A stretch of 64,000 bases of DNA from Blautia sp. Marseille-P3087 (GTDB lineage: Bacteria > Bacillota > Clostridia > Lachnospirales > Lachnospiraceae). The position numbers and the translations under genes are program-made. The notes below the pieces were generated by a model. That model did no database searches, was not told the origin of the DNA, and saw only the letters and a list, made by a program, of their open reading frames with translations. The stretch's first letter is position 1, and every line of letters begins with the position of its first letter. The DNA lies in assembly GCF_900120195.1 (NCBI RefSeq), contig NZ_LT635539.1:1287257-1351256 (forward strand), written 5' to 3'. Below, piece after piece: positions 674-13,722 of this stretch.

Positions 674-1336
674 TTAGTTTTCTTTCATAATCTTAATGAG
701 CTTATTGACATTTTCTACATTCCATTCACCAATCTCCAGCTCTGCATATGGAATATTCTGATCACCGGAGTCCGGATTATGATACCATACACATTTTGCT
801 CCGGCGGCTTTTGCTGCCCTTCCGCCATTTGTAGAATCTTCAATGATCAGGCATTCCTGTGGGCTTACCCCCAGTTTTTCCATTGCACGCAGAAATACAT
901 CTGGTGCCGGTTTTGGCTCGGCAACTTCCCTGCCGCTTGTTATGCTCTGGAAACAATCACGTACATCCAGTACATTCAGAGTTTCTTCTATTACATCTGT
1001 GGGAGAGGAAGATGCAACAGCCAGAATATACCCTGCCTCTTTAAGTTTACTTACAGCTTCTTTCACCCCTGAAAGAAAAGGAAAACCATCACGCTCAACA
1101 ATTTCTTTTTTCTTCTGCTGCATTTTTTTCAGAAGTTCATCCGGATCTCTTTTTAATTTTCCAAATCTTTCTTCAAGCAACTGTATCAGATATTCTCTTG
1201 TCGAACCGATGCATGGCTTATAAATATCATACGTCAGATTTATTCCATCTTCTTCCATAAGAATTTTCCAGCACTTAAAATGCAGTGGTTCTGTATTTAT
1301 CAGGACACCATCCATGTCAAAAATGATTGCTTTCAT
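674..1336 (-). CDS. HAD-superfamily sugar-phosphate phosphatase or mutase (beta-phosphoglucomutase-like)
   Basis: A 220-residue cytoplasmic HAD hydrolase. The N-terminal motif I is FDMDGVL with the nucleophile Asp8 and general acid Asp10. A helical cap follows, then motif II (VASSSP, about residue 107) and motif IV (IIEDSTNG, about 170), with a conserved KPAPDVFL in between. Length and layout match the beta-phosphoglucomutase/sugar phosphatase subfamily. It is the last gene of the importer 1 operon, 17 bp after a 6-phospho-3-hexuloisomerase gene, and is followed by a terminator. Probably it dephosphorylates or isomerises a sugar phosphate made by the operon; which one cannot be read from the sequence. 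Confidence 0.85.
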   Translation of the reverse strand: MKAIIFDMDGVLINTEPLHFKCWKILMEEDGINLTYDIYKPCIGSTREYLIQLLEERFGKLKRDPDELLKKMQQKKKEIVERDGFPFLSGVKEAVSKLKEAGYILAVASSSPTDVIEETLNVLDVRDCFQSITSGREVAEPKPAPDVFLRAMEKLGVSPQECLIIEDSTNGGRAAKAAGAKCVWYHNPDSGDQNIPYAELEIGEWNVENVNKLIKIMKEN

Positions 1337-1353: not shown

Positions 1354-1911
1354 TTATTCAAGATTCGCATGCAATTTAAACATTTCTTCTTCTGTTCTTC
1401 CTGTTTTTTTCATCAGGATCATGATCACGGCATCGTATACAAGCCAGGTCATCTGCTCAAAAGCATTTCCCATAGGCTGTACAGACTTCACCGTATCTTC
1501 CAGATTGCTCTTTGGGGTTGCACCCGGAATGCAGATCCACGCCTCGGAAAGTTTTCCGATCGAAGCTTCCGGATGTATGGTAACTGTAATAACAGATGCT
1601 CCAATCTTCTTTGCCTTCTGTGCCATTACCACAAGGCTTCCTGTCTCTCCGCTTCCGGAGCCGATAACAAGAAGATCACTGGCCTTAATCGCCGGTGTTG
1701 TCGGTTCTCCGACAAAAAATACAGTCAGACCCATATGCATCAATCTGTTGGCAAAAGCACGTGCCACAAATCCGGAACGTCCTGCACCTGCAACAAAAAT
1801 TCTGTCAGCTTTCAGGATCGCGTCGGCAAATTTCTCCATTTCATCCTGTGAAACTCTTTTTTCATTTTCTGTAAGTTCCTGAAGTATACTCTTTAAAATA
1901 GTCTCTGCCAT
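1354..1911 (-). CDS. hxlB: 6-phospho-3-hexuloisomerase (SIS domain), copy 1
   Basis: SIS-domain isomerase of 185 residues, the usual length for 6-phospho-3-hexuloisomerase, which interconverts D-arabino-3-hexulose 6-phosphate and fructose 6-phosphate. Seen here: GAGRSGFVARAFANRLMHMG near residue 42, the sugar-phosphate loop GSGSGET near 84, and a C-terminal HANLE, all typical of the family. It lies 12 bp downstream of the 3-hexulose-6-phosphate synthase gene, its expected partner in the ribulose monophosphate pathway. A second, different copy lies on the other side of the synthase, which is unusual. The ATG at 1911 has a weak GGAG signal. Confidence 0.88.
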   Translation of the reverse strand: MAETILKSILQELTENEKRVSQDEMEKFADAILKADRIFVAGAGRSGFVARAFANRLMHMGLTVFFVGEPTTPAIKASDLLVIGSGSGETGSLVVMAQKAKKIGASVITVTIHPEASIGKLSEAWICIPGATPKSNLEDTVKSVQPMGNAFEQMTWLVYDAVIMILMKKTGRTEEEMFKLHANLE

Positions 1912-1923
1912 GACCGTCTCCTT

Positions 1924-2550
1924 TTATTGTAACTGCATATAAATTTCTTTTGCTGCCGCTGCCGGATCCTCTGCATGGCAGATGCCGCCTCCTACGATCA
2001 GCACATCAGGATGATATTCGATATAATCTTTTACTGTATCTGCATGGATGCCGCCTGCAACAGAGATCTTTGCTTTTTGGGCTGCGGCACTCATGACCTT
2101 CAGATCGTCCAGAGGCGTTCTTCCGATTGCCTGCTGATCTGTGCCTGTATGAACAGCGAGTCCATGGACACCAATCTCTTCCAGTTTTGCAATTCTTTCT
2201 TCCATGTTTTCCACACAGATCATATCAACAACGATTTCTTTACCGTATTTTTCTGCTGCCTCTTTGCATCCCTGTATCGTCAGATTATCGGTTACACCAA
2301 GTACTGTAACATAATCCGCCCCTGCTTTCAGCGCTTCTTCTGCCTCATAATAACCGGCATCCATGATCTTCATATCAGCCAGTATCTCTTTGTCCGGAAA
2401 ATGCTCTTTCATAGTCCGGACAGCCTGCATTCCATATTCGTATACAAAAGGTGTGCCGATCTCAATAATATCAATATAATCTCTGACCTTTTTTACCAGT
2501 TCCAAAGCACCTTCCAAAGTAACATCATCCAATGCAATCTGTAATTTCAT
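1924..2550 (-). CDS. hxlA: 3-hexulose-6-phosphate synthase (OMP decarboxylase superfamily)
   Basis: A 208-residue TIM barrel of the orotidine-phosphate decarboxylase superfamily. Family members join formaldehyde and ribulose 5-phosphate to 3-hexulose 6-phosphate, or run in reverse. The metal/phosphate motif DMKIMDAG (Asp59, Lys61, Asp64), the VVDMICVEN segment, AVHTGTDQQA and the C-terminal phosphate grip GGI/VGGGI are present. These, and the pairing with hexuloisomerase genes on both sides, favour the synthase over the related 3-keto-L-gulonate-6-phosphate decarboxylases (UlaD/SgbH). The latter cannot be excluded without a tree, because the island also contains ulaE- and araD-type genes. Start ATG at 2550; the next upstream gene ends 9 bp away. 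Confidence 0.83.
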   Translation of the reverse strand: MKLQIALDDVTLEGALELVKKVRDYIDIIEIGTPFVYEYGMQAVRTMKEHFPDKEILADMKIMDAGYYEAEEALKAGADYVTVLGVTDNLTIQGCKEAAEKYGKEIVVDMICVENMEERIAKLEEIGVHGLAVHTGTDQQAIGRTPLDDLKVMSAAAQKAKISVAGGIHADTVKDYIEYHPDVLIVGGGICHAEDPAAAAKEIYMQLQ

Positions 2551-2559
2551 GTTTTTCTC

Positions 2560-3126
2560 CTATTCAAGATTTGCGTGGTATTCCCAAAGTTTGTCAAGTT
2601 CCAGATGTTTGTCCCTCACAAGCATCAACGCTGTCGTATCTCCGAAAAGAAGAAGACTCTGTTCAAAAAGTGATGTCATAGGCTGTTCAGAATGGATTTC
2701 ATCCGGTGCTTTTGCACGGCTTTCAACCGGAATACGCACAAATAAATCTGCCACATCTTTCAGTCCGCTGTCTGGATTGCTTCCTATATGAATCACTTTG
2801 GCCCCGATTGCTTTGGCTTTTCCTGCAATTCCTGCCGGAAACATGGTCTCACCGCTTCCGGAACCAACGATCAACACATCATCTTTTGTGATTGCCGGCT
2901 CGGTGATCTGTCCGACGATCACTGTATCAATGCCAAGATGTGCATATCTTTTTGCCATTGCCTCGAGTGACAGAAGCACTCTGCCTACGCCTACAAAAAA
3001 TACCTTTCTTGCCACTGTGAGCATTTCCAGATATTCCAGAACTTTTTCCGGCTCAATTGCTTTCAGTGCTTTAGTGCATTCTTCTATCACAAGTGCTGCA
3101 GACTCTGCATAATCTTCTGCCTTCAT
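2560..3126 (-). CDS. hxlB: 6-phospho-3-hexuloisomerase (SIS domain), copy 2
   Basis: A second SIS isomerase, 188 residues, clearly related to but not a recent duplicate of the copy at 1354-1911. It keeps GVGRVLLSLEAMAKRYAHLG, the GSGSGET loop and the C-terminal HANLE end. In the first motif the serine of the usual GRSG is replaced (GRVL), which may alter substrate contacts. Two isomerases around one synthase suggest either different hexulose phosphates or a heteromeric enzyme. It is 4 bp downstream of the epimerase gene, so translation is probably coupled. Confidence 0.85.
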   Translation of the reverse strand: MKAEDYAESAALVIEECTKALKAIEPEKVLEYLEMLTVARKVFFVGVGRVLLSLEAMAKRYAHLGIDTVIVGQITEPAITKDDVLIVGSGSGETMFPAGIAGKAKAIGAKVIHIGSNPDSGLKDVADLFVRIPVESRAKAPDEIHSEQPMTSLFEQSLLLFGDTTALMLVRDKHLELDKLWEYHANLE

Positions 3127-3130
3127 ATTT

Positions 3131-3805
3131 TTATTCTCCTATGATCTTTCTGAATTTTTCGAGATTTTCTTCCAGTGTGCCTGCCTTTGAGAAAATGCTG
3201 GATGTGCCGGCAACATATATGTCTGCTCCGGCCGCATGCATTTTAACTGCATTTTCAAAGCTTACGTTTCCGTCTGCCTCGATCAGTACTTCGGAATATC
3301 CTTTTTCATTCAGTAATTTACGTATTCTGGTAATCTTATCCAGAGTTGCCGGGATCAGTTTCTGTCCCGCAAATCCGGGATTTACTGTCATACACAGAAC
3401 CATGTCCACATCCGGAAGAATGTCTTCCAGTACACATACCGGTGTCGCCGGATTGATTGCTATTCCGGCTTTAACCCCCATCGCTCTGATGGATGCCAGT
3501 ACTTTCTGCGGATGAAGTGTTGATTCATAGTGGATACAGATAATATCATTTTCGTCACAGCAGGTCAGTTCGGGGATAGTCTGCTCCGGATGTTCGATCA
3601 TCATATGGATGTCCAGCGGTGTTTTGCTGATCTTCTTTAATGCTTTAATAAAATCTGTACTCAATGTGATATTCGGAACAAAATGATTATCCATCATGTC
3701 AACATGAAAATAATCCACACCGACTTTTTCAAGTTTCTCAATATCGCTCTGCACATTCATCAGATCCACACACATCAGCGAAGGTGAAACATAACCTTTT
3801 CTCAT
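3131..3805 (-). CDS. alsE: D-allulose-6-phosphate 3-epimerase-like / ribulose-phosphate 3-epimerase family
   Basis: A 224-residue TIM-barrel epimerase that inverts C3 of a ketose phosphate. The N-terminal SPSLMC, HVDMMDNHFVPNITLS, the metal/acid site in HMMIEHPE, MTVNPGFAGQ and the C-terminal VAGTSSIF are all visible. The SPSLMCVDL and FVPNITLS stretches resemble E. coli AlsE (allulose 6-phosphate to fructose 6-phosphate) more than housekeeping Rpe, as I remember those sequences. The context (ribose-type importer, PfkB kinase, rpiB, LacI) also resembles an allose operon. Start and the preceding stop share a base (TAATG at 3803-3807), showing translational coupling to the kinase. Plain ribulose-phosphate 3-epimerase remains the alternative. 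Confidence 0.78.
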   Translation of the reverse strand: MRKGYVSPSLMCVDLMNVQSDIEKLEKVGVDYFHVDMMDNHFVPNITLSTDFIKALKKISKTPLDIHMMIEHPEQTIPELTCCDENDIICIHYESTLHPQKVLASIRAMGVKAGIAINPATPVCVLEDILPDVDMVLCMTVNPGFAGQKLIPATLDKITRIRKLLNEKGYSEVLIEADGNVSFENAVKMHAAGADIYVAGTSSIFSKAGTLEENLEKFRKIIGE

Positions 3806-4749
3806 TACAGTACACCTCCAATTCTTTCTGTCAGAAAGTTCTCTACTTCTTCCTCTGTCGGTATGGATGTCTGTGCACCCAGTCTTGATACGCAGATGCC
3901 TGCTGCTGCATGTGCAAAAAGAATCGCATCTTCAATCTTGCTGCCTTTGCAGAGTCTGATTGCCAGTGCAGCACCGAAAGTATCTCCTGCTGCTGTGGAA
4001 TCTACTGCTTTTACCTTAAAGCACTCGATAAATTTTGCCTCTGTTCCATTATAAAGCAGAGCACCTCTTTCTCCCATCTTCAGGATGACATACTGAGGAC
4101 TTACCTCATCATACAGCCATTTTGCTGCTTTGAGCGCATTTTCATTGCTGTCGATACAGATTCCGGTAAGGGCTTCTGTTTCTGCTTCATTTGGCGATAA
4201 AATAAAAAGACCTTTTAATCGTTCCAGCGGAATCTTCATAGCCGGCCCTGCATCCAGAAATACCGGTATTCCTTTTTCCCTGGCCAATTCATAGGTCTGG
4301 TAAACTGTTTCAAGCGGCATTTCAAGCTGCATGACTACCATATCAAATTCATTTTCATCCATTGCTTTTCTGACAGCATCCGGACTTAACCGATCATTAC
4401 CGCCCATCGCTACATAGGATACATATCTGCCAGTCCGATCATCCAGCAGCATCAGTGCCAGTCCTGTCTGTGTCTCAGGATCTATCACCAGATAATCTGT
4501 ATTTACACCGGCCTTATCCAGAGATGCTTTTACCTGTTTTCCGTTTTCATCATCTCCAATACAGCCTACAAATACAACGTCCGCTCCCTGTTTAGCAACG
4601 GCAAAGGCCTGATTAGAGCCTTTGCCGCCAGGAGCATAACCATAATGTCTGCATCGAATGGATTCTCCGTATCCCGGAATTGCATTTGCACCTTCCACAA
4701 AAAGATCCATATTGATGCTTCCCACAACTAAAATCTTAGGTTGCTTCAT
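3805..4749 (-). CDS. rbsK: Ribokinase-family (PfkB) sugar kinase
   Basis: ATP-dependent sugar kinase of 314 residues. Visible family signatures are the N-terminal GSINMDLF, the sugar-binding GGKGSNQAFAVAK near residue 42, and the catalytic DSTAAGDTFGAAL near 250 with the base aspartate in AAGD. These are the hallmarks of ribokinase rather than fructokinase or 1-phosphofructokinase. In this operon it should phosphorylate the imported sugar (ribose, or a ketohexose such as allulose) to feed the epimerase. I place the start at 4749 because GGAGG lies 5 bases before that ATG; an in-frame ATG at 4761 has no such site. It follows the permease gene by 35 bp. Confidence 0.88.
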   Translation of the reverse strand: MKQPKILVVGSINMDLFVEGANAIPGYGESIRCRHYGYAPGGKGSNQAFAVAKQGADVVFVGCIGDDENGKQVKASLDKAGVNTDYLVIDPETQTGLALMLLDDRTGRYVSYVAMGGNDRLSPDAVRKAMDENEFDMVVMQLEMPLETVYQTYELAREKGIPVFLDAGPAMKIPLERLKGLFILSPNEAETEALTGICIDSNENALKAAKWLYDEVSPQYVILKMGERGALLYNGTEAKFIECFKVKAVDSTAAGDTFGAALAIRLCKGSKIEDAILFAHAAAGICVSRLGAQTSIPTEEEVENFLTERIGGVL

Positions 4750-4784
4750 ATTATCCTCCATTTTCTGTAACTGAATGCTCAGCC

Positions 4785-5753
4785 TTATTTCTGGCTTAAT
4801 TTTGCCATTCTTCTCTTCTCGATCGTGAAGTTCATGATAAGAACTGCGATCAGTGCAACTCCCCAGATCAGGTCACGATAGTAGTTACTGATGCTCGGGA
4901 ACATATTCAGATAAGAAGACAGCATCTGAAGAATCAGAACTGCGATTGCAACACCCGGAATAGAACCAAATCCACCATCCGGATTAATTCCGCCGAGTAC
5001 TGAAATAAGGATTGTCTGCATTGTGTAGCTGCTACCAAAATCGGCTTTTGCTGAGTTGATTCTGGAAAGACTCAGAAGACCTGCAACTGCTGATACGATA
5101 CCGGAAAGCATGTATGCACGGATCAGAACAGATACATTATTGATACCAGCAAACTTAGATGCCTTTTCATTTGTTCCTACGAGATGTACACGTTTGCCGA
5201 ATTTTGTTTTTCCCATAATAAAGGAAATAACAACGATCATAAGGATGAATACGATAAACGGCATTGGGATTCCTGCAACTGTCATGTATGCAAAAGAGCT
5301 GTATACAGTCGGCACGCCGCTTACAGTACTTCCCTTGGAGGCTACGATCGCGATACCCATGTATAACTGATAAGTACCAAGTGTTGCAAGCATTGCCGGG
5401 ATTTTCAGTACAGATACAAGGAATCCGTTGAAGATACCGCAGGCAGCACCAACAATAAGTGCTACGATAATTGCAACTACAATGCTGGAGCCTGACTCAT
5501 TCATGGTCAGACCGGCAACGATTCCACAAAGGTTTGCAATATAAACAGTAGAAAGGTCGATACCTCCGGAAATCATTGTAATACCACAGCCGACCGCCAT
5601 CAGACCATATTCGGTAAGTGTCTTTGCCATGGACTGTAAATTGCCTACATTCAGGAAACTTGTTCCTTTTGTAATACCGGAAACTGCAATGATGATAACA
5701 AAAATAGCAAGCAGTCTTAAAATATTTCCATCAATCTTTTTTGCTTTTTTCAT
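4785..5753 (-). CDS. Sugar ABC importer 1, permease B (ribose-type, RbsC family)
   Basis: Integral membrane permease of 322 residues with roughly nine hydrophobic segments. It has the family marker ISGGIDLS near residue 61 and the cytoplasmic SVLGGINPDGGFGS loop near 250 that contacts the ATPase. It should pair with the other permease at 5755-6780 to form the translocation channel. The start is 1 bp after the stop of that gene and the ribosome binding site lies inside it, so the two are coupled. The binding protein, ATPase and kinase of the same operon indicate a pentose or ketohexose substrate. Confidence 0.9.
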   Translation of the reverse strand: MKKAKKIDGNILRLLAIFVIIIAVSGITKGTSFLNVGNLQSMAKTLTEYGLMAVGCGITMISGGIDLSTVYIANLCGIVAGLTMNESGSSIVVAIIVALIVGAACGIFNGFLVSVLKIPAMLATLGTYQLYMGIAIVASKGSTVSGVPTVYSSFAYMTVAGIPMPFIVFILMIVVISFIMGKTKFGKRVHLVGTNEKASKFAGINNVSVLIRAYMLSGIVSAVAGLLSLSRINSAKADFGSSYTMQTILISVLGGINPDGGFGSIPGVAIAVLILQMLSSYLNMFPSISNYYRDLIWGVALIAVLIMNFTIEKRRMAKLSQK

Positions 5754-5754
5754 T

Positions 5755-6780
5755 TTATGCTGCCTCCTTCTTTCCTGTTTTTGCCTTGCCGATCTTTACA
5801 TTATGGCTCTGCATTACGGAAATTGCAGTACCAATGATAATGATCGCACCGATAAATACTTTCTGCCAGTAAACAGAGATTCCGAGAAGGATCAGACTGT
5901 TTGATACCATGGTAAGAAGTAAGGTACCGAGGATACATCCTTTCAGAGTTCCCACACCACCGTTCAGTCTTGTACCACCAAGAATGATTGCAGCGATAAC
6001 ATCCATTTCTGCACCTGAATACTCAGTCGGAAGATATCTCATGGACATAACTGCATAGGAAAGACCAGCTACTGCTGCCAGCATACCATTTACGACAAAA
6101 ATGCCAAAACGGATTTTCTTTACGGCAAATCCGGCTCTTTCTGCTGAAACCTCATCACCACCGATAGCATATACGCCTCGGCCAACCATCGTATAATTCA
6201 GGACGAAATATACAATAATGTAAAGTACTACCATGAGCAGAAACGTCATCGGAAGAGTAGATCCAAGTCCTGTTTTTGCATTTTTTACGGTAAGCAGAGA
6301 CACTTTTCCAAATCTCTGAAGTGTATCCGGAAGATCCATACGTTCTGCCTCGAATGCACCAAGGAGAAGACCACTGAAAATAGATGAAGTACCAAGTGTT
6401 ACGATCAGGCTCGAGAATTTGTATTTTACAATGATAAATCCGTTGAAAGCTCCCATCAGAGCTCCAAAGAACATACCAATGATAAATACTACGATCCAAG
6501 GTCCGTCATATCCTGTTTTGTATGTAATAGTAATTGCAAGGTAACTGCTCAGTGCAGCGATCAGAGGGAACGAAACATCTGGTCCTGTACTGATAAATGC
6601 GAGAAACGCACATAAAGCATAAATACATGGTACGATCATGGATCTCATGATATCCACAATATTGTTATTTGCAAAAAACAATCCGGAACGAATCTGAATA
6701 ATGACTGATAAAACAACAATGATCAGAAATACATAAAATTCGGACTGTTTGGTGATTTTTTTCCAGTTGAATCCTTTCAT
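5755..6780 (-). CDS. Sugar ABC importer 1, permease A (ribose-type)
   Basis: Integral membrane permease of 341 residues, about nine to ten hydrophobic segments. The coupling loop AAIILGGTRLNGGVGT near residue 266 is conserved. The usual GGID motif is altered to STGPDVSF near residue 66, whereas its partner keeps GGIDLS; the same asymmetry occurs in importers 2 and 3. An N-terminal basic/aromatic stretch (FNWKKITKQSEF) precedes the first membrane segment. It lies 20 bp after the ATPase gene. Function as half of a heterodimeric sugar channel is well supported; the substrate is inferred from neighbours. Confidence 0.9.
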   Translation of the reverse strand: MKGFNWKKITKQSEFYVFLIIVVLSVIIQIRSGLFFANNNIVDIMRSMIVPCIYALCAFLAFISTGPDVSFPLIAALSSYLAITITYKTGYDGPWIVVFIIGMFFGALMGAFNGFIIVKYKFSSLIVTLGTSSIFSGLLLGAFEAERMDLPDTLQRFGKVSLLTVKNAKTGLGSTLPMTFLLMVVLYIIVYFVLNYTMVGRGVYAIGGDEVSAERAGFAVKKIRFGIFVVNGMLAAVAGLSYAVMSMRYLPTEYSGAEMDVIAAIILGGTRLNGGVGTLKGCILGTLLLTMVSNSLILLGISVYWQKVFIGAIIIIGTAISVMQSHNVKIGKAKTGKKEAA

Positions 6781-6800
6781 TTATATTTCACTCCCTTTCC

Positions 6801-8282
6801 TTAGTTTGCTGCCGCAGCAAGATTCTGCTCAGTCAGTTCAGATTTTTCAAGTCTTCCTGTAATGCATCCGCCCTGCATGATCACAACACGGTCACATGTG
6901 GCAATGACTTCTGCAGTATCATCGGATACAACGATAACGGCCATACCCTGTGCTGCCAGTTTCTTAAGCAGATTGTGAATATCGTATTTTGCACCGATAT
7001 CAACACCAACGGTCGGTCCGTTCAGGATCAGAACCTTCGGACTTGTTGCAAGTGCACGTGCCAGCACAACTTTCTGCTGGTTACCACCGGAAAGTGTTGC
7101 TACCGGGAAAGTGTGGTCTTTTGTTGCAACACCCAGATCTTTAACCCAGTCTGCAGATTCTTTCAGGACTTTGTCTTTATTTACAATTCCGCCTGCTGTC
7201 GCGATATCATCCAGTCTGGTAACTGTGATATTGTCTACAATAGACTGTGGAAGGAACAGGCCTTCTGTCAGTCTGTCTTCCGGCACAAGCGAAATCCCCA
7301 TCTTCTGTGCCTGAGTTACAGATTTAAAGTTTACATCTTTGCCTTCCAGTTTGATGGTTCCTTCTGTTGGTTTCAGCATTCCGGAAAGAGCCAGCGACAG
7401 CTCTGTTCGTCCTGATCCCAGCTGTCCGGTAATTCCGAGGATTTCTCCTTCATGAAGATCAAAGCTGATATTTTCAAATCCCGGAGCAGATAATTTATCT
7501 ACCTCCAGAACAGTTTTTCCGATTTTCTTTTCACCTGTATCATCCTGTTTGTCCTCAAAATGACGTCCGGTCATATAATAAGTAAATTTCTCTTCTGTCA
7601 TTTCTGAAGTCGGACAACTGATGACATTTTCGCCGTTTCTCATGATTGTAATACTGTCAGAGATTTCGAATACCTCGTCCAGCTTATGAGAAACAAAAAG
7701 AATTGTTACGCCATTTTCTTTAAGCTGTGCAATGATCTCAAACAGACGTTTTACTTCTTTTTTGGTAAGAGCTGTTGTCGGTTCATCCATGATGATCAGT
7801 TTTGCATTGTCAAGAAGCGCTCTTGAAATGGCGATCAGCTGCTTGTCTGCAACCGGAAGTGTTTCTACCAGTGCATCCAGATCTACATCAAAATTGATCT
7901 TGGCAACTGCCTCTTCTGCAATTCTTCTGAATTCTTTTTTGTTTACGAATTTTTTCTTATTAGCAAGCACCTGATTGAATGCCAGGTTTTCAATAACAGT
8001 CAGGTTTGGGAAGATGGAAAAATCCTGATAAATTACCTGGATTCCTGCTTTGATTGCTTCTGCCGGTGTCATAACCGGATACGCTTTTCCGTCTACTTCG
8101 ATACTTCCTCCGTCCGGTTTATAAAATCCGGAGATTACCTTGATTATTGTTGACTTACCACAACCATTTTCTCCTGCCAGACAATGTGTCTCGCCTTTTT
8201 TGATTGTAAGGTCAACCCCTTTCAATGCATGTACTCCGCCGAATGACTTCTTTATCTGTTTTACTGAAAGAATATTTTCCAT
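6801..8282 (-). CDS. Sugar ABC importer 1, double ATPase (RbsA-type) with an altered second Walker B
   Basis: Cytoplasmic ATPase of 493 residues with two nucleotide-binding domains. The first has Walker A GENGCGKST (37-45) and Walker B IIMDEPTTAL. The second has the usual relaxed Walker A (GQLGSGRTE), an intact signature LSGGNQQKVVLARAL, but reads VLILNGPTVGVD where the other three importers of this window have DEPT. Thus both the Walker B aspartate and the catalytic glutamate are replaced, so the second site probably binds but does not hydrolyse ATP. The gene follows the binding-protein gene after a 166 bp gap that contains a strong hairpin. Confidence 0.92.
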   Translation of the reverse strand: MENILSVKQIKKSFGGVHALKGVDLTIKKGETHCLAGENGCGKSTIIKVISGFYKPDGGSIEVDGKAYPVMTPAEAIKAGIQVIYQDFSIFPNLTVIENLAFNQVLANKKKFVNKKEFRRIAEEAVAKINFDVDLDALVETLPVADKQLIAISRALLDNAKLIIMDEPTTALTKKEVKRLFEIIAQLKENGVTILFVSHKLDEVFEISDSITIMRNGENVISCPTSEMTEEKFTYYMTGRHFEDKQDDTGEKKIGKTVLEVDKLSAPGFENISFDLHEGEILGITGQLGSGRTELSLALSGMLKPTEGTIKLEGKDVNFKSVTQAQKMGISLVPEDRLTEGLFLPQSIVDNITVTRLDDIATAGGIVNKDKVLKESADWVKDLGVATKDHTFPVATLSGGNQQKVVLARALATSPKVLILNGPTVGVDIGAKYDIHNLLKKLAAQGMAVIVVSDDTAEVIATCDRVVIMQGGCITGRLEKSELTEQNLAAAAN

Positions 8283-8363
8283 CCTATCATCCTGCCTTTC
8301 CTTTCCTATTTAAACGAATAAAACTAATGGAATTTTTGGTTTTTTCCTGAATTTTTTGCAAAA

Positions 8364-8406
8364 ATATTGTTACAGTCCAGATTTACGGTCTGAACTGTAA
8401 CAATAT
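8364..8406 (-). terminator. Intra-operon hairpin after the binding-protein gene (attenuator-type terminator)
   Basis: A perfect 13-bp stem (8364-8376 with 8394-8406), extended inward by further pairs, followed on the minus strand by TTTTT. It lies between the binding-protein gene and the ATPase gene of the same operon. Such partial terminators commonly keep binding-protein mRNA above permease and ATPase mRNA. The rest of the gap is AT-rich without further recognisable signals. Confidence 0.75.
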
Positions 8407-8448
8407 GCATAAATTTACTTATCTACGGGTTACTGACTGATTCGAAAA

Positions 8449-9498
8449 TCAGAAGTCATAGTCATCAATGTTGTCTTTTGTGATTGTAAGGTCAGCCTGT
8501 CCGATGATGCACTTGTTATCGCCTTCGCTGATTGTGATGCTGTTGTATCCGTCAAGACCAAGATCTGCGCCTTCTTCAATTGTTTCGCCGCCAAGAATCA
8601 TGGAAGCAACTTTGCACATGATATATCCGGAATCTTTTGGATCCCACAGTTTGATTGTGGAGATTGTGCCAGATTCTACATATGGTTTAAATTCGTTAGG
8701 AGTACCAACACCAACAACTTTTACATCAAGACCAAGTTCTTCAACTGCTTTTGCGATACCTGGGCAGTCAGTAGAAGCAACACCTGTGAATCCTTTCAGA
8801 TCCGGGTTAGCTTTAAGAACTTCTTTTGCACGCTCATAAGCTGTATCAATACTTTCTTCAGATTCACATGTCGGAACAGCGCCGTCATTGATCAGTTCCA
8901 TGTTCGGATAAGCTTCTTCCTGACGTTTTTTCTCTGCATTTGCATATTCCATATGTGTAGTACTTGTTGTGTAAGCAACCATTTCAGCATATTTTCCTTC
9001 TTCGCCCATGTCAGCTGCAAGTGCATCCATAAGAGCTGCACCGAAATCCTCTGCTGTAAATGCTTCAGTATCATACAGTGTATTTACCTGGTTGGATGCT
9101 TCATGTGTTACAACAACGATACCTTTGTCCATTGCGTTTTTCAGGGATGCTTCAATTGCGCCCGGGTCGATCGGAACTACGCAGAGAGCGTCAACACCCT
9201 GGTTGATCATATCGTCAATAACCTGAACCTGAGACGCTGCGTCTGCATTTGCAGGTCCTTTCTGGATTACGTTGATTCCGGTTTCTTCGCCGAACTCATT
9301 TACTCCAACTTCCATACGTTTGAACCAGTTTGCTGTGTTGTCTTTTGTTACAACTGCAATTGTCCATTCGGATGAATCTTTGTCGGATTTGAAATCTGCC
9401 GGATCATATCCGTCTGCTGCGAATACATTCACAGATGCTGCCATTGATACGGTCATGGCTGCTGTTAATGCTACTGCTGCTACCTTCTTTGCTTTCAT
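8449..9498 (-). CDS. Sugar ABC importer 1, substrate-binding protein (RbsB/AlsB type)
   Basis: Exported binding protein of 349 residues. It begins with a classic signal peptide: basic KAKK, a hydrophobic Ala/Val/Met stretch and a probable signal peptidase I site after VFA (about residue 27). There is no lipobox cysteine, so lipid anchoring is not predicted, which is unusual for a Gram-positive importer. The mature part has the periplasmic-binding-protein fold signatures of the ribose/galactose family, for example the VCVVPIDPGAIE strand and the second-lobe VVGVGTPNEF. It sits between a SIS gene and the ATPase. The substrate is inferred to be a ribose/allose/allulose-like sugar. Confidence 0.9.
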   Translation of the reverse strand: MKAKKVAAVALTAAMTVSMAASVNVFAADGYDPADFKSDKDSSEWTIAVVTKDNTANWFKRMEVGVNEFGEETGINVIQKGPANADAASQVQVIDDMINQGVDALCVVPIDPGAIEASLKNAMDKGIVVVTHEASNQVNTLYDTEAFTAEDFGAALMDALAADMGEEGKYAEMVAYTTSTTHMEYANAEKKRQEEAYPNMELINDGAVPTCESEESIDTAYERAKEVLKANPDLKGFTGVASTDCPGIAKAVEELGLDVKVVGVGTPNEFKPYVESGTISTIKLWDPKDSGYIMCKVASMILGGETIEEGADLGLDGYNSITISEGDNKCIIGQADLTITKDNIDDYDF

Positions 9499-9573
9499 GT
9501 TGCTTCCTCCTTTTAATTGAAAGTTTATAATTGTAAAAACCGCGTTTACCGCGTTTCCCCAAAGGGTTCTCAG

Positions 9574-10137
9574 TTATTCCACATTTCTGTGGCGTGCGAC
9601 CATCTCTTCCGGTTTGATGTCCATTTCTTCACGAAGCATCATTACCAGAATGTCGTAGAAAATAAATAATGTCTGCTCAAACAGATTTCCCATCAGCTGC
9701 TCGGATGGTACGAAATCTCCTACTGCCTTATAAGCTGCTGCCGGAACATTTACTACCATATCTGCAATGGAAAGTAAAAATCCTTCAGAAGAAGGTGTGA
9801 TCAGTGCAAGTTTTGCACCATTCTTCTTTGCCATATCTGCCACATAGTTTTCATGTCCTACATTTGCGGAACCACATGCACAGATCATCAGGTCGCCCTC
9901 TCCTATGGATGGAGTTGTATCATCCCATATCCAGAAAGACTCTTTGCCGAGATGCATCAGTCTCATTGCAAAAGACTTTGTTGCAAGTCCCTCACGTCCT
10001 GCTGCCAGAAGAAAAATTCTCGGTGTCTTTTTAATCTCTTCCAGAAGTTCTCTTACATTTGAGTCATCCATGCGTTCAAATACTTCTGTCAGTTCTTTCA
10101 TGCACTGTGTGCTCAGTTCTTTAAATCTGTCTTTCAC
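9574..10137 (-). CDS. SIS-domain sugar-phosphate isomerase-like protein, divergent third copy
   Basis: A 187-residue SIS protein related to the two hexuloisomerases of this operon (AAGREGLATKSFAMRLMHLG near residue 46, C-terminal RHRNVE replacing HANLE). The sugar-phosphate loop GSGSGET is replaced by CGSANVGHEN, so it may use another substrate or have a regulatory role. It is the first gene behind the second LacI operator and starts with GTG at 10137, seven bases after AGGAGG. A catabolite-repression-like site lies between promoter region and start. Isomerase activity is a family inference; the changed loop makes the exact reaction uncertain. Confidence 0.75.
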   Translation of the reverse strand: MKDRFKELSTQCMKELTEVFERMDDSNVRELLEEIKKTPRIFLLAAGREGLATKSFAMRLMHLGKESFWIWDDTTPSIGEGDLMICACGSANVGHENYVADMAKKNGAKLALITPSSEGFLLSIADMVVNVPAAAYKAVGDFVPSEQLMGNLFEQTLFIFYDILVMMLREEMDIKPEEMVARHRNVE

Positions 10138-10153
10138 TTTTATACCTCCTGTT

Positions 10154-10168
10154 TTGAAATCGTTTCCA
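10154..10168 (-). promoter_or_regulatory. Catabolite-responsive element (cre)-like site
   Basis: The 15 bases TTGAAATCGTTTCCA fit the Gram-positive CcpA consensus WTGNAANCGNWNNCW at every defined position. It lies between the probable promoter (-10 at 10248-10253) and the GTG start at 10137, a position typical for roadblock repression. It implies that importer 1 and its catabolic genes are shut down by preferred sugars. Confidence 0.7.
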
Positions 10169-10220
10169 ATTTCATGTGAAAAAACGCTTATTTTACAGCA
10201 TTTTTTGTTTTATTTAATTG

Positions 10221-10253
10221 TGTAACCGGTTTCTATTTTGTGTAAAAATTATA
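10221..10253 (-). promoter_or_regulatory. Operator 1 of the LacI repressor with a TATAAT -10 box
   Basis: The 16 bases TGTAACCGGTTTCTAT at 10221-10236 recur exactly at 11327-11342 in front of the repressor gene. The core AACCGGTT is palindromic, as in LacI-family operators. A perfect TATAAT (minus strand, 10248-10253) lies 11 bases upstream of the operator; the -35 region is weak (AAATAC at 17 bp). A repressor bound here would block transcription of the SIS gene and importer 1. The remaining gap to 10288 is AT-rich. Confidence 0.72.
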
Positions 10254-10288
10254 TGTAAATAAGATAATTCCGTATTTGCATATATTTT

Positions 10289-11299
10289 TTATAATTTATT
10301 GATAATTAGTTTCGTATCCAAAACCACTTCCATTTTAGGTCTGTCCGGAAATGCCATTCTGTTGATCAGAAGTTTGATTGCTTCACGTCCCATCTTCATG
10401 GCATCACGTTCAATAAAATTGTAGTTATTCCCCAGAAGCTCCAGCGTTTCAATACGATCCAGCCCGAAACATACGATATCATCCGGTACTGATTCGCCCC
10501 TCTCTGACAATGCCTTCAGAAATCCCAACGTCGTGCGGTTATTACATGTAATCACTGCCGTCGGTCTGTCTTCCATAGACAGAAGCTCTCTGGATAAGTG
10601 GTATGATTTTGTTGCATGGAAATCGCCTGCAAAAATATAATCTTCTCTGATTGGAATGCCGGCCTGCTCCATGGCCTCTGTAAATCCCTTCTGTCTGTCT
10701 CTTGCCAGAGGCTTTTCAAGATCAGCATTTATGATTCCGATCTTTGTATGTCCCGCCCCGATCAGCGCCTTCGTTGCTTCATATATACCCTGATAATCGT
10801 TGAAATAAACTCCGTCTACATTTGGAAGATTGATATTTCGATCCATAACGATCACCGGTACATTGATTTCATCAAATGTCCGGATCAGATTCTTCCGGTC
10901 TTTCTTGTCCGTGTAATCAACCGCTGGTGTATACAGGATTCCTCTGACACGGTTCTCTTTGAAAAGATCCAGTGCCCTGCGGTCTTTCTCCCGTTCATCG
11001 TCTGTGTTACAACAGATCAGTGTCAGATTATTTTTGTCTGTGATTTCTGTTACACCCCGAAGTATCTCACCAAAGAAAGGGTTATCTATCTCCGGGACAA
11101 CAAAACCGATTGCTGATGAAGTACCTTTTGAAAGATTACGTGCAGTAGCAGATGGAGAAAACTTATTTTCTTTAATAATCTCCAACACCCGTTCTTTTGT
11201 CCTTGGGCTTACTGCTCCTGAATTATTTATTACTCTGGAAACAGTTGCTTTGGAAACACCTGCTTCTCTTGCAATATCCATAATCGTCAAGTTACTCAT
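10289..11299 (-). CDS. LacI-family transcriptional repressor of the importer 1 operon
   Basis: DNA-binding repressor of 336 residues. The N-terminal helix-turn-helix reads TIMDIAREAGVSKATVSRVIN (residues 5-25), followed by the hinge helix (SPSATARNL) and a sugar-binding core starting with IGFVVPEIDNPFF. This is the canonical LacI/PurR architecture at full length. Its own promoter is a consensus one with an operator directly downstream, and the same operator lies before the transporter genes, so autoregulation plus control of importer 1 is well supported. The inducer is probably the imported sugar or its phosphate. It lies between rpiB and the SIS gene. Confidence 0.93.
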   Translation of the reverse strand: MSNLTIMDIAREAGVSKATVSRVINNSGAVSPRTKERVLEIIKENKFSPSATARNLSKGTSSAIGFVVPEIDNPFFGEILRGVTEITDKNNLTLICCNTDDEREKDRRALDLFKENRVRGILYTPAVDYTDKKDRKNLIRTFDEINVPVIVMDRNINLPNVDGVYFNDYQGIYEATKALIGAGHTKIGIINADLEKPLARDRQKGFTEAMEQAGIPIREDYIFAGDFHATKSYHLSRELLSMEDRPTAVITCNNRTTLGFLKALSERGESVPDDIVCFGLDRIETLELLGNNYNFIERDAMKMGREAIKLLINRMAFPDRPKMEVVLDTKLIINKL

Positions 11300-11326
11300 A
11301 CGCTGTCCTCCAGATCACTCCGCAAA

Positions 11327-11342
11327 TGTAACCGGTTTCTAT
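11327..11342 (-). promoter_or_regulatory. Operator 2 of the LacI repressor
   Basis: Exact second copy of the 16-base element found at 10221-10236, with palindromic core AACCGGTT. It lies immediately downstream of the -10 box of the repressor promoter and 28 bp before its ATG, the ideal place for negative autoregulation. Confidence 0.8.
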
Positions 11343-11349
11343 ATTTGGT

Positions 11350-11378
11350 ATTATAGGATAAGCAAATCAGTTTGTCAA
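11350..11378 (-). promoter_or_regulatory. Consensus vegetative promoter of the lacI-type gene
   Basis: On the minus strand TTGACA (11373-11378) and TATAAT (11350-11355) are separated by exactly 17 bp, a perfect match to the sigma-A consensus. Operator 2 begins 7 bp further downstream. It lies after the stop of rpiB, so repressor and catabolic genes can be transcribed separately from rpiB. Confidence 0.88.
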
Positions 11379-11455
11379 CAGGTTCCGTCATTTCTTTTGT
11401 GCTTTCTGTATATTTCAACATATTCATCATATGTATTTTGTGCATTTTAGACAAA

Positions 11456-11932
11456 TCACTGTCTGACATCCCCGTACATCTCATTTTCAAACTCGACCAG
11501 CTCATCAAATTCTTTCTCAACGATTCTGGCCATCTCAGGATCCAGTCCTACCATGTGCTCGGCTTCCAGCCATGCGCGTGCCATTTCACGCCCCATCTCA
11601 TTGCCAATGATAAATCCACCCATGCAGAGTACATTGGTGTTATTGACAACTTTTGCCCTTCTGGCCTGATAAATACTTTCGCATAATGCCGCATAAACAC
11701 CTCTGTGCTTATTACAGATAATGCTTACTCCCATTCCGGTTCCACAAATGGCAATCCCACGCTCATACTCTTTGCTCTGGACACCTCTCGCAACTGCTTT
11801 CGCCGCCTCCTGAAACAGCACCGGCTCGTCCGGATCAATGTCCATGATCTCGTATCCTCTCTTTAACAGATCCTCTTTGATTGCGTTTTTCAGTTCAAAT
11901 CCCGCCGGATCTGCTCCCATAATAATCTTCAT
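11456..11932 (-). CDS. rpiB: Ribose-5-phosphate isomerase B / allose-6-phosphate isomerase (RpiB/LacAB family)
   Basis: Cytoplasmic isomerase of 158 residues. The N-terminal GADPAGFELKNAIKEDL replaces the usual GxDHAG (proline instead of the ring-opening histidine), while the phosphate/anion hole loop GIAICGTGMGVSIICNKHRGV with the catalytic cysteine is intact, as is NNTNVLCMGGFIIG. It interconverts ribose 5-phosphate and ribulose 5-phosphate, and in allose pathways allose 6-phosphate and allulose 6-phosphate. It is the first gene of the island, next to the LacI gene, just as rpiB adjoins the als operon in E. coli. The changed DHAG motif points to a non-ribose substrate such as a hexose phosphate or a galactose-type sugar. 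Confidence 0.85.
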   Translation of the reverse strand: MKIIMGADPAGFELKNAIKEDLLKRGYEIMDIDPDEPVLFQEAAKAVARGVQSKEYERGIAICGTGMGVSIICNKHRGVYAALCESIYQARRAKVVNNTNVLCMGGFIIGNEMGREMARAWLEAEHMVGLDPEMARIVEKEFDELVEFENEMYGDVRQ

Positions 11933-11981: not shown

Positions 11982-12011
11982 ATAATACTCTACCCGTACT
12001 CGCACTGTCAA
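11982..12011 (-). promoter_or_regulatory. Probable promoter of rpiB
   Basis: Minus strand TTGACA (12006-12011), 18-bp spacer, TATTAT (11982-11987), with the ATG 50 bp downstream. A strong match to the sigma-A consensus. The rest of the divergent gap up to 12199 must hold the promoter of the plus-strand unit; the only candidate I see is a TACAAT near 12122 without a good -35 box. Confidence 0.75.
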
Positions 12012-12747: not shown

Positions 12748-13722
12748 ATGTGTACTGCCGCAACTTATCAGACAAAAGATTTTTATTTTGGAAGAACTCT
12801 GGACTATGAGTTTTCCTATGGTGACCAGATTGCCATCACACCACGAAATTATCCGTTTTCTTTCCGGCATGCCGGCGAAATGGCCACTCACTACGCGATC
12901 ATCGGTATGGCTCATGTTGCCGGAAACTACCCCCTCTATTATGATGCCATCAACGAAAAAGGTGTTGGTATGGCAGGATTAAACTTTGTCGGAAATGCCG
13001 CTTATGCAGATGTTTCACCTGACAGAGATAATGTCGCCCAGTTTGAATTTATTCCATGGATTTTAAGCCAGTGTGCGACTCTTTCCGAAGTACGGACGCT
13101 TCTTGAGCGCATGGCCCTGGTGGCCACTCCGTTCAACGAACAGTTTCCGCTCGCGCAGCTTCACTGGATCATCTCGGACAAAACAGGTTCCATTACAGTA
13201 GAATCTATGGCTGACGGACTTCATATTTATGAGAATCCGGTCGGTGTGCTCACGAACAATCCGCCTTTTCCACAGCAGATGTTCCAGCTCAACAACTTTA
13301 TGCACTTGTCTCCGAAACAGCCTGTAAATACTTTTTCCGATGATCTTGCTCTCACTGCATACAGCCGCGGAATGGGAGCGCTCGGTCTTCCGGGAGATCT
13401 GTCTTCCGCATCCCGTTTTGTCCGGGTTGCTTTCACAAAGATGAACGCCTTTTCAGGCGATTCCGAAAAAGAAAGCGTAAGCCAGTTCTTTCACATTCTC
13501 GGTTCCGTGGATCAGCAGCGCGGATGCTGCGAAGTCGCTGATGGAAAATATGAGATTACGCTTTATACTTCCTGCTGTAATGTCACAAAGGGGATCTATT
13601 ATTATACAACCTATGAAAACCACCAGATCAGTGCTGTCGATATGCACAGAGAGAATCTGGATGGTGGTGCCCTGATCTGCTATCCGGTCATTCAGGGCGA
13701 ACAAATCAATTATCAGAATTAA
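12748..13722 (+). CDS. cbh: Choloylglycine hydrolase family protein (probable bile salt hydrolase)
   Basis: N-terminal-nucleophile amidase of 324 residues, cytoplasmic (no signal peptide). After removal of Met1, Cys2 becomes the nucleophile. The other active-site residues of the family are visible: Arg16 in FGRTLDYE, Asp19, Asn79 in AGLNFVGNA, Asn170/171 in LTNNP, and Arg223 in SASRF. The family deconjugates glyco- or tauro-bile acids or hydrolyses penicillin V and N-acyl homoserine lactones; the early Arg and Asp spacing and gut origin favour bile salts. It is the middle gene of a three-gene unit. Substrate specificity cannot be settled from sequence alone. Confidence 0.88.
   Translation: MCTAATYQTKDFYFGRTLDYEFSYGDQIAITPRNYPFSFRHAGEMATHYAIIGMAHVAGNYPLYYDAINEKGVGMAGLNFVGNAAYADVSPDRDNVAQFEFIPWILSQCATLSEVRTLLERMALVATPFNEQFPLAQLHWIISDKTGSITVESMADGLHIYENPVGVLTNNPPFPQQMFQLNNFMHLSPKQPVNTFSDDLALTAYSRGMGALGLPGDLSSASRFVRVAFTKMNAFSGDSEKESVSQFFHILGSVDQQRGCCEVADGKYEITLYTSCCNVTKGIYYYTTYENHQISAVDMHRENLDGGALICYPVIQGEQINYQN

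Follow-up and report, generated by a model that had tools for sequence, protein, structure and literature searches.

Genes for a hexulose-6-phosphate synthase (HPS) and a 6-phospho-3-hexuloisomerase (PHI) are usually taken as a sign of methylotrophy or of formaldehyde detoxification. In Blautia sp. Marseille-P3087 (assembly GCF_900120195.1), such a pair, hxlA and hxlB, closes a sugar-import operon on the minus strand of contig NZ_LT635539.1, within the 64,000-nucleotide stretch analysed here (positions 1,287,257 to 1,351,256, hereafter the window). What does a synthase of this kind do among the genes of an importer, a sugar kinase and an AlsE-like epimerase? Judging from the protein families encoded, we give an even chance to the answer that the operon, under LacI control, takes up a rare allulose-series hexose and funnels it to fructose 6-phosphate (F6P), with HxlA in an accessory role.

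From 11932 down to 1354, the operon encodes an RpiB-like isomerase, a LacI-family regulator, SIS1, a sugar-binding protein (SBP), an ATP-binding cassette (ABC) ATPase, permeases A and B, a PfkB-family kinase, an AlsE-like epimerase, SIS2, HxlA and HxlB (Table 1). Each is an uninterrupted open reading frame (ORF) as called by a simple longest-ORF script, with approximate starts and the possibility of missed small genes. Family scans covered ten of the 12 proteins; both permeases were assigned by position and conservation. An earlier note on this DNA, made from the sequence, had described these genes as lying on one strand with short gaps. The strand is as described, and the gaps from the ATPase gene through hxlB measure -1 to 23 nt, but lacI is flanked by gaps of 156 and 151 nt, and 75 and 166 nt separate SIS1 from SBP and SBP from ATPase. 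The genes may be split over more than one transcription unit, and promoter-like boxes precede the rpiB-like gene and lacI.

The presence of these genes in one operon is not a matter of chance, judging by their conservation in other genomes. At E ≤ 1e-60 the SBP was matched in 27 of 397 genomes, six of them, including the window's (G000), above 700 bits, and a close importer (SBP at least 72% identical) was found in ten genomes, the window's included. The search for the gene set that the earlier note had suggested recovered it, in whole or for the most part, in eight further genomes, where it occupies one locus or two; the SBPs of G104, G214, G005, G967, G968, G038, G354 and G966 are 77-87% identical to that of the window. 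The set occupies one locus in the window's genome, G104, G214 and G005. In the latter three, this locus comprises SIS1, the importer, PfkB, SIS2, HxlA, HxlB, LacI and an AlsE gene upstream of lacI (AlsE being cut by the end of the stretch in L062), while an RpiB-like gene, itself cut, was seen in L061 only; none was seen beside the operon of G005, where it was not sought elsewhere. In G967 and G968 a first locus holds LacI, RpiB-like, SIS1, importer and SIS2 genes, and a second one AlsE, a second LacI, PfkB, HxlA and HxlB. G038 and G354 are split in the same way, without SIS1 and without LacI at the importer locus. G966 (L039, of which L169 is a copy) combines a SIS1-like protein (34% identical), RpiB-like, LacI, importer, D-psicose 3-epimerase, HxlB and HxlA. 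Lastly, G433 has the importer with SBP (72%), PfkB (56%), AlsE (63%) and HxlB (57%), and its genome contains no HxlA (best match 30 bits). All ten close-importer genomes carry an HxlB-family gene. Some sequences of the relatives have N-terminal extensions from longest-ORF calling, and L035 and L110 represent a single genome (the places in G969 are those of G354).

HxlA is of the synthase type by sequence, as the earlier note had held. At UlaD positions 112, 139, 169 and 192, which we take from the literature on 3-keto-L-gulonate-6-phosphate decarboxylase (KGPDC) and HPS to be the discriminating sites, it has D/T/A/G, next to D/L/A/G in the HPS of M. gastri, whereas UlaD, SgbH and the distant relative L078 share E/R/T/R (55 rows compared). 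Its scores on two decarboxylase models (139.0 and 117.8) are both below the cut-offs, against 287.9 bits on TIGR03128. A grouping with UlaD and SgbH, which the earlier note had regarded as contrary to its proposal, was not recovered; HxlA and UlaD/SgbH were split with a Shimodaira-Hasegawa-like approximate likelihood ratio test (SH-aLRT) value of 100, in a tree which, like that of the SIS proteins below, comes from a quick search with SH-aLRT only and long-branch warnings. The closest solved relative (3f4w) is labelled only as a putative synthase.

The epimerase shares one sugar-import regulon with a synthase-type HxlA, which bears out this part of the earlier proposal. The operon epimerases and E. 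coli AlsE clustered together, with modest support (82/60), away from canonical Rpe. The window protein shares MC, PGFA, DG[SN] and GTS with E. coli AlsE, while canonical Rpe rows, including that of this genome encoded separately near C2:1471.7 kb, show LAAD/LSAD-type motifs, PGFG, DGG, and GSA, GSY or GTA. The other operon epimerases are mostly AlsE-lettered, with exceptions such as PGFS in L061 and GSS in L065. The window protein is hence called AlsE-like, not AlsE. It is nearest to the epimerase of G433 (63-64% identical), with 45-49% identity to those of the other operons, in which the gene lies upstream of lacI. This relationship and the differing gene position suggest that the epimerase gene was replaced or relocated with its function kept.

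Three HxlB-model matches exist in the whole genome, all within the operon; the earlier note had counted two hexuloisomerases, and the third is the gene it had listed simply as SIS (SIS1). HxlB clears the TIGR03127 cut-off well, SIS2 and SIS1 barely (Table 1). In a tree of 79 proteins they fell into three separate clades, SIS1 with 10 rows, SIS2 with 17 and operon HxlB with 11 (SH-aLRT 99, 99 and 96), on a weak backbone where long branches meet. YckF from B. subtilis belongs to none of the three and lies outside the 32-row set that contains the window's HxlB. SIS1 and SIS2 are thus affiliated by sequence with divergent clades of the HxlB family, and no specificity is assigned to them. The SGSGET loop, presumably the phosphate loop of the family, is kept in HxlB and SIS2, and SIS1 has CGSANV instead. 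The structure model of SIS1 (predicted local distance difference test score 93.5) adopts the YckF/HxlB fold, with template modelling (TM) scores of 0.83-0.85 to YckF chains, a match that gives no function. SIS2 tracks AlsE-type genes across loci. The window's SIS2 gene lies 4 nt from the AlsE-like gene, and in the relatives 7 of 16 SIS2 genes are accompanied, on the same strand and no more than 400 nt away, by an AlsE-type gene; at loci with other importers (L162, L163, L246-L251) the figure is seven of eight, L162 and L163 being near copies. The tree and this count omit L169. Among the nine misses, seven belong to this importer and have AlsE elsewhere in the operon or on a second locus (L061, L062, L065, L109, L110, L159, L160); in L111 none was seen, and the ninth is L251. 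The simplest chemistry would have SIS2 and AlsE acting in sequence on hexulose 6-phosphates.

The importer was expected from the earlier note to be of the ribose type. With two permeases and an SBP whose nearest models are RhaS and LsrB, it is instead affiliated by its family matches with Lsr/Rha-like systems, not with the RbsB/AlsB type. A fold search with the SBP placed 3d02, 9i1m and 5bra nearest, all listed without a named ligand. The leading candidate substrate is D-allulose or D-allose, because of the AlsE-like enzyme and the variant operon of G966, in which a D-psicose 3-epimerase (464.7 bits, cut-off 300) replaces PfkB, AlsE and SIS2. This lead is held loosely, since the D-psicose 3-epimerase family occurs in many other contexts. 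Members above the cut-off were found in 31 of 329 family genomes, and their contexts are too diverse for the G966 enzyme to establish allulose as the substrate. One gene of this family (G000:C2:1899572-1900432, 356.8 bits) belongs to the window's genome itself, beside another ABC importer.

The predicted regulator of the operon is the LacI-family protein, and no HxlR (DUF24) was found among the ten scanned operon proteins, to which the search for it was confined. The LacI-type operator TAGAAACCGGTTACA is found in two exact copies within the 3.3 Mb genome, one ahead of lacI and the other ahead of SIS1. When up to two mismatches to TGTAACCGGTTACA were allowed, sites were present at 12 of the 16 related loci (16 in 307 kb) and at one of the 39 control loci (1 in 762 kb), an excess which is partly by construction, as the pattern was derived from the loci and then counted, with the controls giving the background rate. 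Such sites mostly precede AlsE, LacI, RpiB-like or SBP genes; that of L061 falls inside an over-long LacI ORF and that of L062 lies beside a doubtful ORF. A genome-wide search tolerating mismatches yielded 7 matches, fewer than the 9 of the reversed control, and use was therefore made of the two exact sites and the comparison across loci alone. A scan for cre-like motifs was also set aside (17 matches, shuffle mean 9.4, 17 reached in 1 of 100 shuffles); both operators were among its matches.

How might these proteins work together? An Lsr/Rha-type ABC importer would bring in D-allulose, D-allose or a 3-ketohexose, which PfkB would phosphorylate at C6. Allose 6-phosphate, allulose 6-phosphate and 3-hexulose 6-phosphate, which differ only by the position of the carbonyl or the configuration at C3, could be interconverted by the RpiB-like protein, SIS2, HxlB and the AlsE-like epimerase, with F6P as the exit: SIS2 would provide allulose 6-phosphate for AlsE, and HxlB would lead to F6P directly. 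SIS1, whose usual phosphate loop is gone, may take part ahead of the kinase or have a sensing role. HxlA would form a reversible branch between 3-hexulose 6-phosphate and ribulose 5-phosphate (Ru5P) plus formaldehyde, accessory and not core. Substrate, order of steps, activities of SIS1 and SIS2 and the direction of HxlA in vivo are given here as we infer them. PMC8879981 describes RpiB and AlsE as acting on allose 6-phosphate and allulose 6-phosphate.

Isomerisation, not formaldehyde chemistry, is placed at the core because G433 lacks HxlA, with support from G046 and G374, two cases selected for having an HxlB-family gene. Three of the 15 distant-importer loci read (L111-L120, L128-L132) have such a gene. 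L111 (G046) encodes SBP (50%), LacI (56%), PfkB (57%) and SIS2 (55%) together with two esterase-like proteins (53-56 bits to an esterase model, below its cut-off), and L112 (G374) an SBP (48%), PfkB, a TIM-barrel isomerase-like protein and HxlB; neither genome has an HxlA match above about 22 bits. In L113 (G010; SBP 44%), operators and a SIS1-like gene are present, and the contig ends within a kinase gene; G010 has an HxlA-type gene elsewhere, below the cut-off (179 bits), and was omitted from the counts. A hexulose-phosphate route to F6P, one half of the earlier proposal, fits these comparative data. The other half, formaldehyde release as the core function, is disfavoured, as G433, G046 and G374 keep an HxlB-family isomerase in the operon without an HxlA match above about 30 bits. 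Taken as a whole, the earlier interpretation is partly supported.

Several observations weigh against the proposed funnelling of an allulose-series hexose. A simple allulose route needs a kinase and AlsE alone, and leaves three SIS proteins surplus. On the rpe model the epimerase exceeds the cut-off (227.7 vs 212.6), on that of AlsE it falls short (207.1 vs 271), and the support of its clade is modest. The SBP reaches 50.1 bits on the AlsB model (cut-off 335) and resembles RhaS/LsrB. The RpiB-like protein lacks histidines present in E. coli RpiB: SRQHND is replaced by AKVVNN and CDHVGF by ADPAGF, with ICGTG kept. Val takes the place of one histidine in all six full-length sequences compared and in one partial sequence, and Pro (five) or Ser (one) that of the other; the protein may not be an ordinary aldose isomerase. 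This importer was found in none of 18 D-psicose 3-epimerase contexts (20 stretches of the 49 listed places were read, and the gene was located in all but L213 and L222). Twelve of the 15 distant-importer loci have no HxlB-family gene. HxlA occurs in nine of the ten close-importer genomes (not in G433), but HxlA itself was the query that led to G966, G967 and G968, which have it by selection; in the seven found through the SBP the count is six. The operator excess is partly by construction, and no operator was found at 4 of the 16 related loci (L109, L110, L127 and L111). As these four include the loci where G038 and G354 have their importers, the operators lend no support to a joint control of both loci in either genome.

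A bolder form of the proposal is unlikely but not negligible: 3-hexulose 6-phosphate would be a true catabolic intermediate in non-methylotrophic gut Firmicutes, in which a rare, 3-keto or branched hexose (e.g. hamamelose) would, after import and phosphorylation, reach F6P via HxlB-family isomerases and AlsE, with HxlA as a carbon-shifting or branch enzyme and formaldehyde transient or bound, neither growth substrate nor poison.

Somewhat less probable than this is a role in pentose supply. HxlA and HxlB run in reverse in archaea, and in a cell without an oxidative pentose phosphate pathway they could convert F6P to Ru5P and formaldehyde, with the AlsE-like and RpiB-like proteins distributing the Ru5P. 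An HxlB gene lies within 400 nt of HxlA in 40 of 47 relatives (one genome, L040/L063, is counted twice), and 6-phosphogluconate dehydrogenase (6PGDH, PF00393) was matched in none of four HxlA carriers, namely the window's genome, G104, G005 and G966. However, 6PGDH is present in the HxlA carriers G214, G038, G354, G967 and G968, so that its absence, with four regulon genomes without and five with it, does not explain HxlA. Moreover, HxlA above the cut-off is rare, being present in 13 of the 299 genomes that were sampled within the family of the window, and a LacI regulator and an importer would be an odd control for a housekeeping need.

The import of ribose or ribulose, with HxlA and HxlB fixing formaldehyde onto Ru5P in a detoxification of the ribulose monophosphate type, is slightly less credible again. 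The kinase is ribokinase-like, RpiB-like and Rpe/AlsE-like enzymes surround Ru5P, and D-psicose 3-epimerases accept ribulose too. Against this stand the loss of HxlA in G433, which keeps importer, kinase, AlsE and HxlB, and the AlsE-like rather than Rpe-like character of the epimerases. According to PMC8879981, hxlAB of B. subtilis is a formaldehyde-induced dissimilation pair under HxlR. The operon in our case, with LacI and no HxlR-type regulator among its ten scanned proteins, is by sequence not a formaldehyde-response hxlAB operon.

We consider it improbable that hxlAB joined a rare-sugar operon as unrelated neighbours by a chance rearrangement. Importer and hxlAB do occupy different loci in four genomes, but both modules were found in eight genomes, counting that of the window (four have them on a single locus and four on two), and both loci of G967 and of G968 have operator-like sites ahead of them. 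A branched sugar is more doubtful yet. Here the kinase would convert a 2-C-hydroxymethyl pentose such as D-hamamelose to a 5-phosphate, HxlA would move formaldehyde to the neighbouring carbon to give 3-hexulose 6-phosphate, and HxlB would form F6P. Chemically, the HPS enediolate could take formaldehyde at either carbon, and the scheme would explain the co-occurrence of a ribokinase-like kinase, HPS and PHI. Also counted in its favour are the sub-cut-off esterase-like genes beside the SIS2, PfkB and LacI relatives of G046. Against it, G433, G046 and G374 do without HxlA, and AlsE, the RpiB-like protein and the D-psicose 3-epimerase variant would not be needed. Hardly any credence is left for a 3-keto-aldonate decarboxylase route, which has in its favour the shared PF00215 suprafamily and is contradicted by the residues, tree and model scores that rule out HxlA as a KGPDC of the UlaD/SgbH type.

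The proposed rare-hexose operon can be set beside known systems. Similar to the E. coli als operon (alsR-alsBACEK with rpiB adjoining, D-allose to F6P), it has an ABC importer, a sugar kinase, an AlsE-type 3-epimerase and an RpiB-family isomerase. In contrast to als, its regulator is LacI and not the SIS-domain protein AlsR, whose model the SIS proteins match weakly (18.6-36.8 bits), and its kinase is PfkB and not AlsK, a ROK kinase. It further differs by two permeases, the Lsr/Rha-like SBP, the divergent RpiB, and the addition of HxlA and three HxlB-family proteins. Its AlsB score, kinase and regulator exclude it from the E. coli-type D-allose operons; by its predicted content it would work like an allose/allulose operon outside the als type. 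With hxlAB (HPS-PHI) of B. subtilis and methylotrophs it shares an HxlA and an HxlB that pass the family models and the synthase-type residues, but here they stand in a sugar-import regulon with extra SIS paralogs and AlsE, and HxlA is missing from some relatives. The 3-keto-L-gulonate-6-phosphate decarboxylase pathways (ula/sgb) of E. coli belong to the same OMP-decarboxylase suprafamily and likewise form a catabolic unit with a 3-epimerase, whereas HxlA lacks the decarboxylase residues and groups apart, and the window's set has no 4-epimerase. Among the literature matches listed, which mostly exclude subscription papers and hence are no proof of novelty, no title or opening of an abstract describes this gene set.

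Kinase, AlsE-type epimerase and SIS2-clade isomerase stand in a row, as in the window, in six further operons (L162, L163, L246, L247, L249 and L250), and L248 has a sorbitol-6-phosphate dehydrogenase-family gene, AlsE, SIS2 and a mannitol-family phosphotransferase system (PTS). At these seven loci the importers are of other kinds, and no gene in the stretches read is labelled HxlA. The six may represent a second rare-sugar pathway with a SIS2-clade isomerase. A D-lyxose/D-mannose isomerase-like gene is present in L162, L163, L249 and L250 (only that of L162 was scanned, 231.3 bits, cut-off 350), and five of the six have an unassigned gene of about 355 aa, which in L162 has no NCBIfam match. 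In L041, L043-L050 and L068, from Enterococcus, Bacillaceae, Paenibacillus and one member of the window's family, HxlA and HxlB lie beside PTS-type genes, mostly with a mannitol-1-phosphate dehydrogenase-like (MtlD-like) gene and in several cases with DhaK/DhaL-like genes. Scans there covered three proteins of L043 and one of L044; the PTS, DeoR-like and aldo-keto reductase names of unscanned neighbours are readings of N-termini.

Table 1 Features of the operon and its surroundings, in window coordinates
Feature	Coordinates	Strand	Basis
Promoter-like boxes upstream of rpiB-like gene, 11/12 matches	11982..12011	-	consensus match only
RpiB/LacAB-family isomerase, divergent	11456..11932	-	PF02502 136 bits; rpiB equivalog 113.3 vs 138.65
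Promoter-like TTGACA-17-TATAAT upstream of lacI, 12/12	11350..11378	-	consensus match only
LacI-type operator TAGAAACCGGTTACA, 3' of lacI promoter-like match	11327..11341	-	exact copy
LacI-family regulator	10289..11299	-	family scan; relatives 49-61% identical
Second copy of TAGAAACCGGTTACA, upstream of SIS1	10221..10235	-	exact copy
SIS1, divergent HxlB-fold protein	9574..10137	-	TIGR03127 160.7 bits, cut-off 160
Sugar-binding protein (SBP), RhaS/LsrB-like	8449..9498	-	family models, fold search
Stem-loop, 18 bp, between SBP and ATPase genes	8364..8406	-	fold of 8290-8450, z -3.08
Sugar ABC ATPase, fused	6801..8282	-	family scan
Permease A	5755..6780	-	position; 76-80% identical in nine close-importer loci, 59% in L111
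Permease B	4785..5753	-	position; 60-72% identical in nine close-importer loci, 52% in L111
PfkB-family sugar kinase, ribokinase-like	3805..4761	-	ribokinase model 280.1, below cut-off 299.65
AlsE-like hexulose-6-phosphate 3-epimerase	3131..3805	-	AlsE model cut-off missed
SIS2, HxlB-family isomerase, separate clade	2560..3126	-	TIGR03127 164.6, cut-off 160
HxlA, 3-hexulose-6-phosphate synthase type	1924..2550	-	TIGR03128 287.9, cut-off 200
HxlB, 6-phospho-3-hexuloisomerase by family model	1354..1911	-	TIGR03127 241.2, cut-off 160
HAD phosphatase, beta-PGM/hexitol phosphatase-like, adjoins hxlB	674..1336	-	only generic HAD-IA cut-off passed

The HAD phosphatase gene, which the earlier note had counted as part of the operon, lies outside 1354-11932 and was rejected as a member of the set, as none of 14 related loci has a counterpart. 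HAD-family genes do occur 3' of hxlB in five PTS-type loci (L044-L047, L049), and HAD may have a wider link to HxlAB. Downstream of hxlB, L033, L034, L061 and L062 have in common a cluster with an MtnA-family isomerase, an RpiB above the cut-off (both scanned in L061 only) and a DeoR-like regulator, joined in L061 and L062 by an iron alcohol dehydrogenase-like gene; this is possibly just a shared neighbourhood. The promoter-like boxes are to be read against a scan that in total gave 27 sites versus 26.5 in shuffles. The stem-loop between the SBP and ATPase genes is strong and perhaps sets an excess of SBP over the importer. A choloylglycine (bile salt) hydrolase is encoded near the operon (12748-13722, plus strand; NF038245 497.2 bits, cut-off 350).

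The operon is thus real, conserved and unusual, yet built from known enzyme families. By their gene neighbourhoods, HxlAB pairs are linked to sugar import elsewhere too, in PTS-type and other ABC sugar operons of Firmicutes. Because HxlAB sit in sugar catabolic units of Firmicutes, annotation of C1 metabolism from HPS and PHI genes alone could mislead. The SIS1 and SIS2 clades offer two as yet unassigned phosphosugar proteins with strong context clues. If the imported sugar is allulose, the operon would be a candidate for the bacterial use of this low-calorie sweetener.

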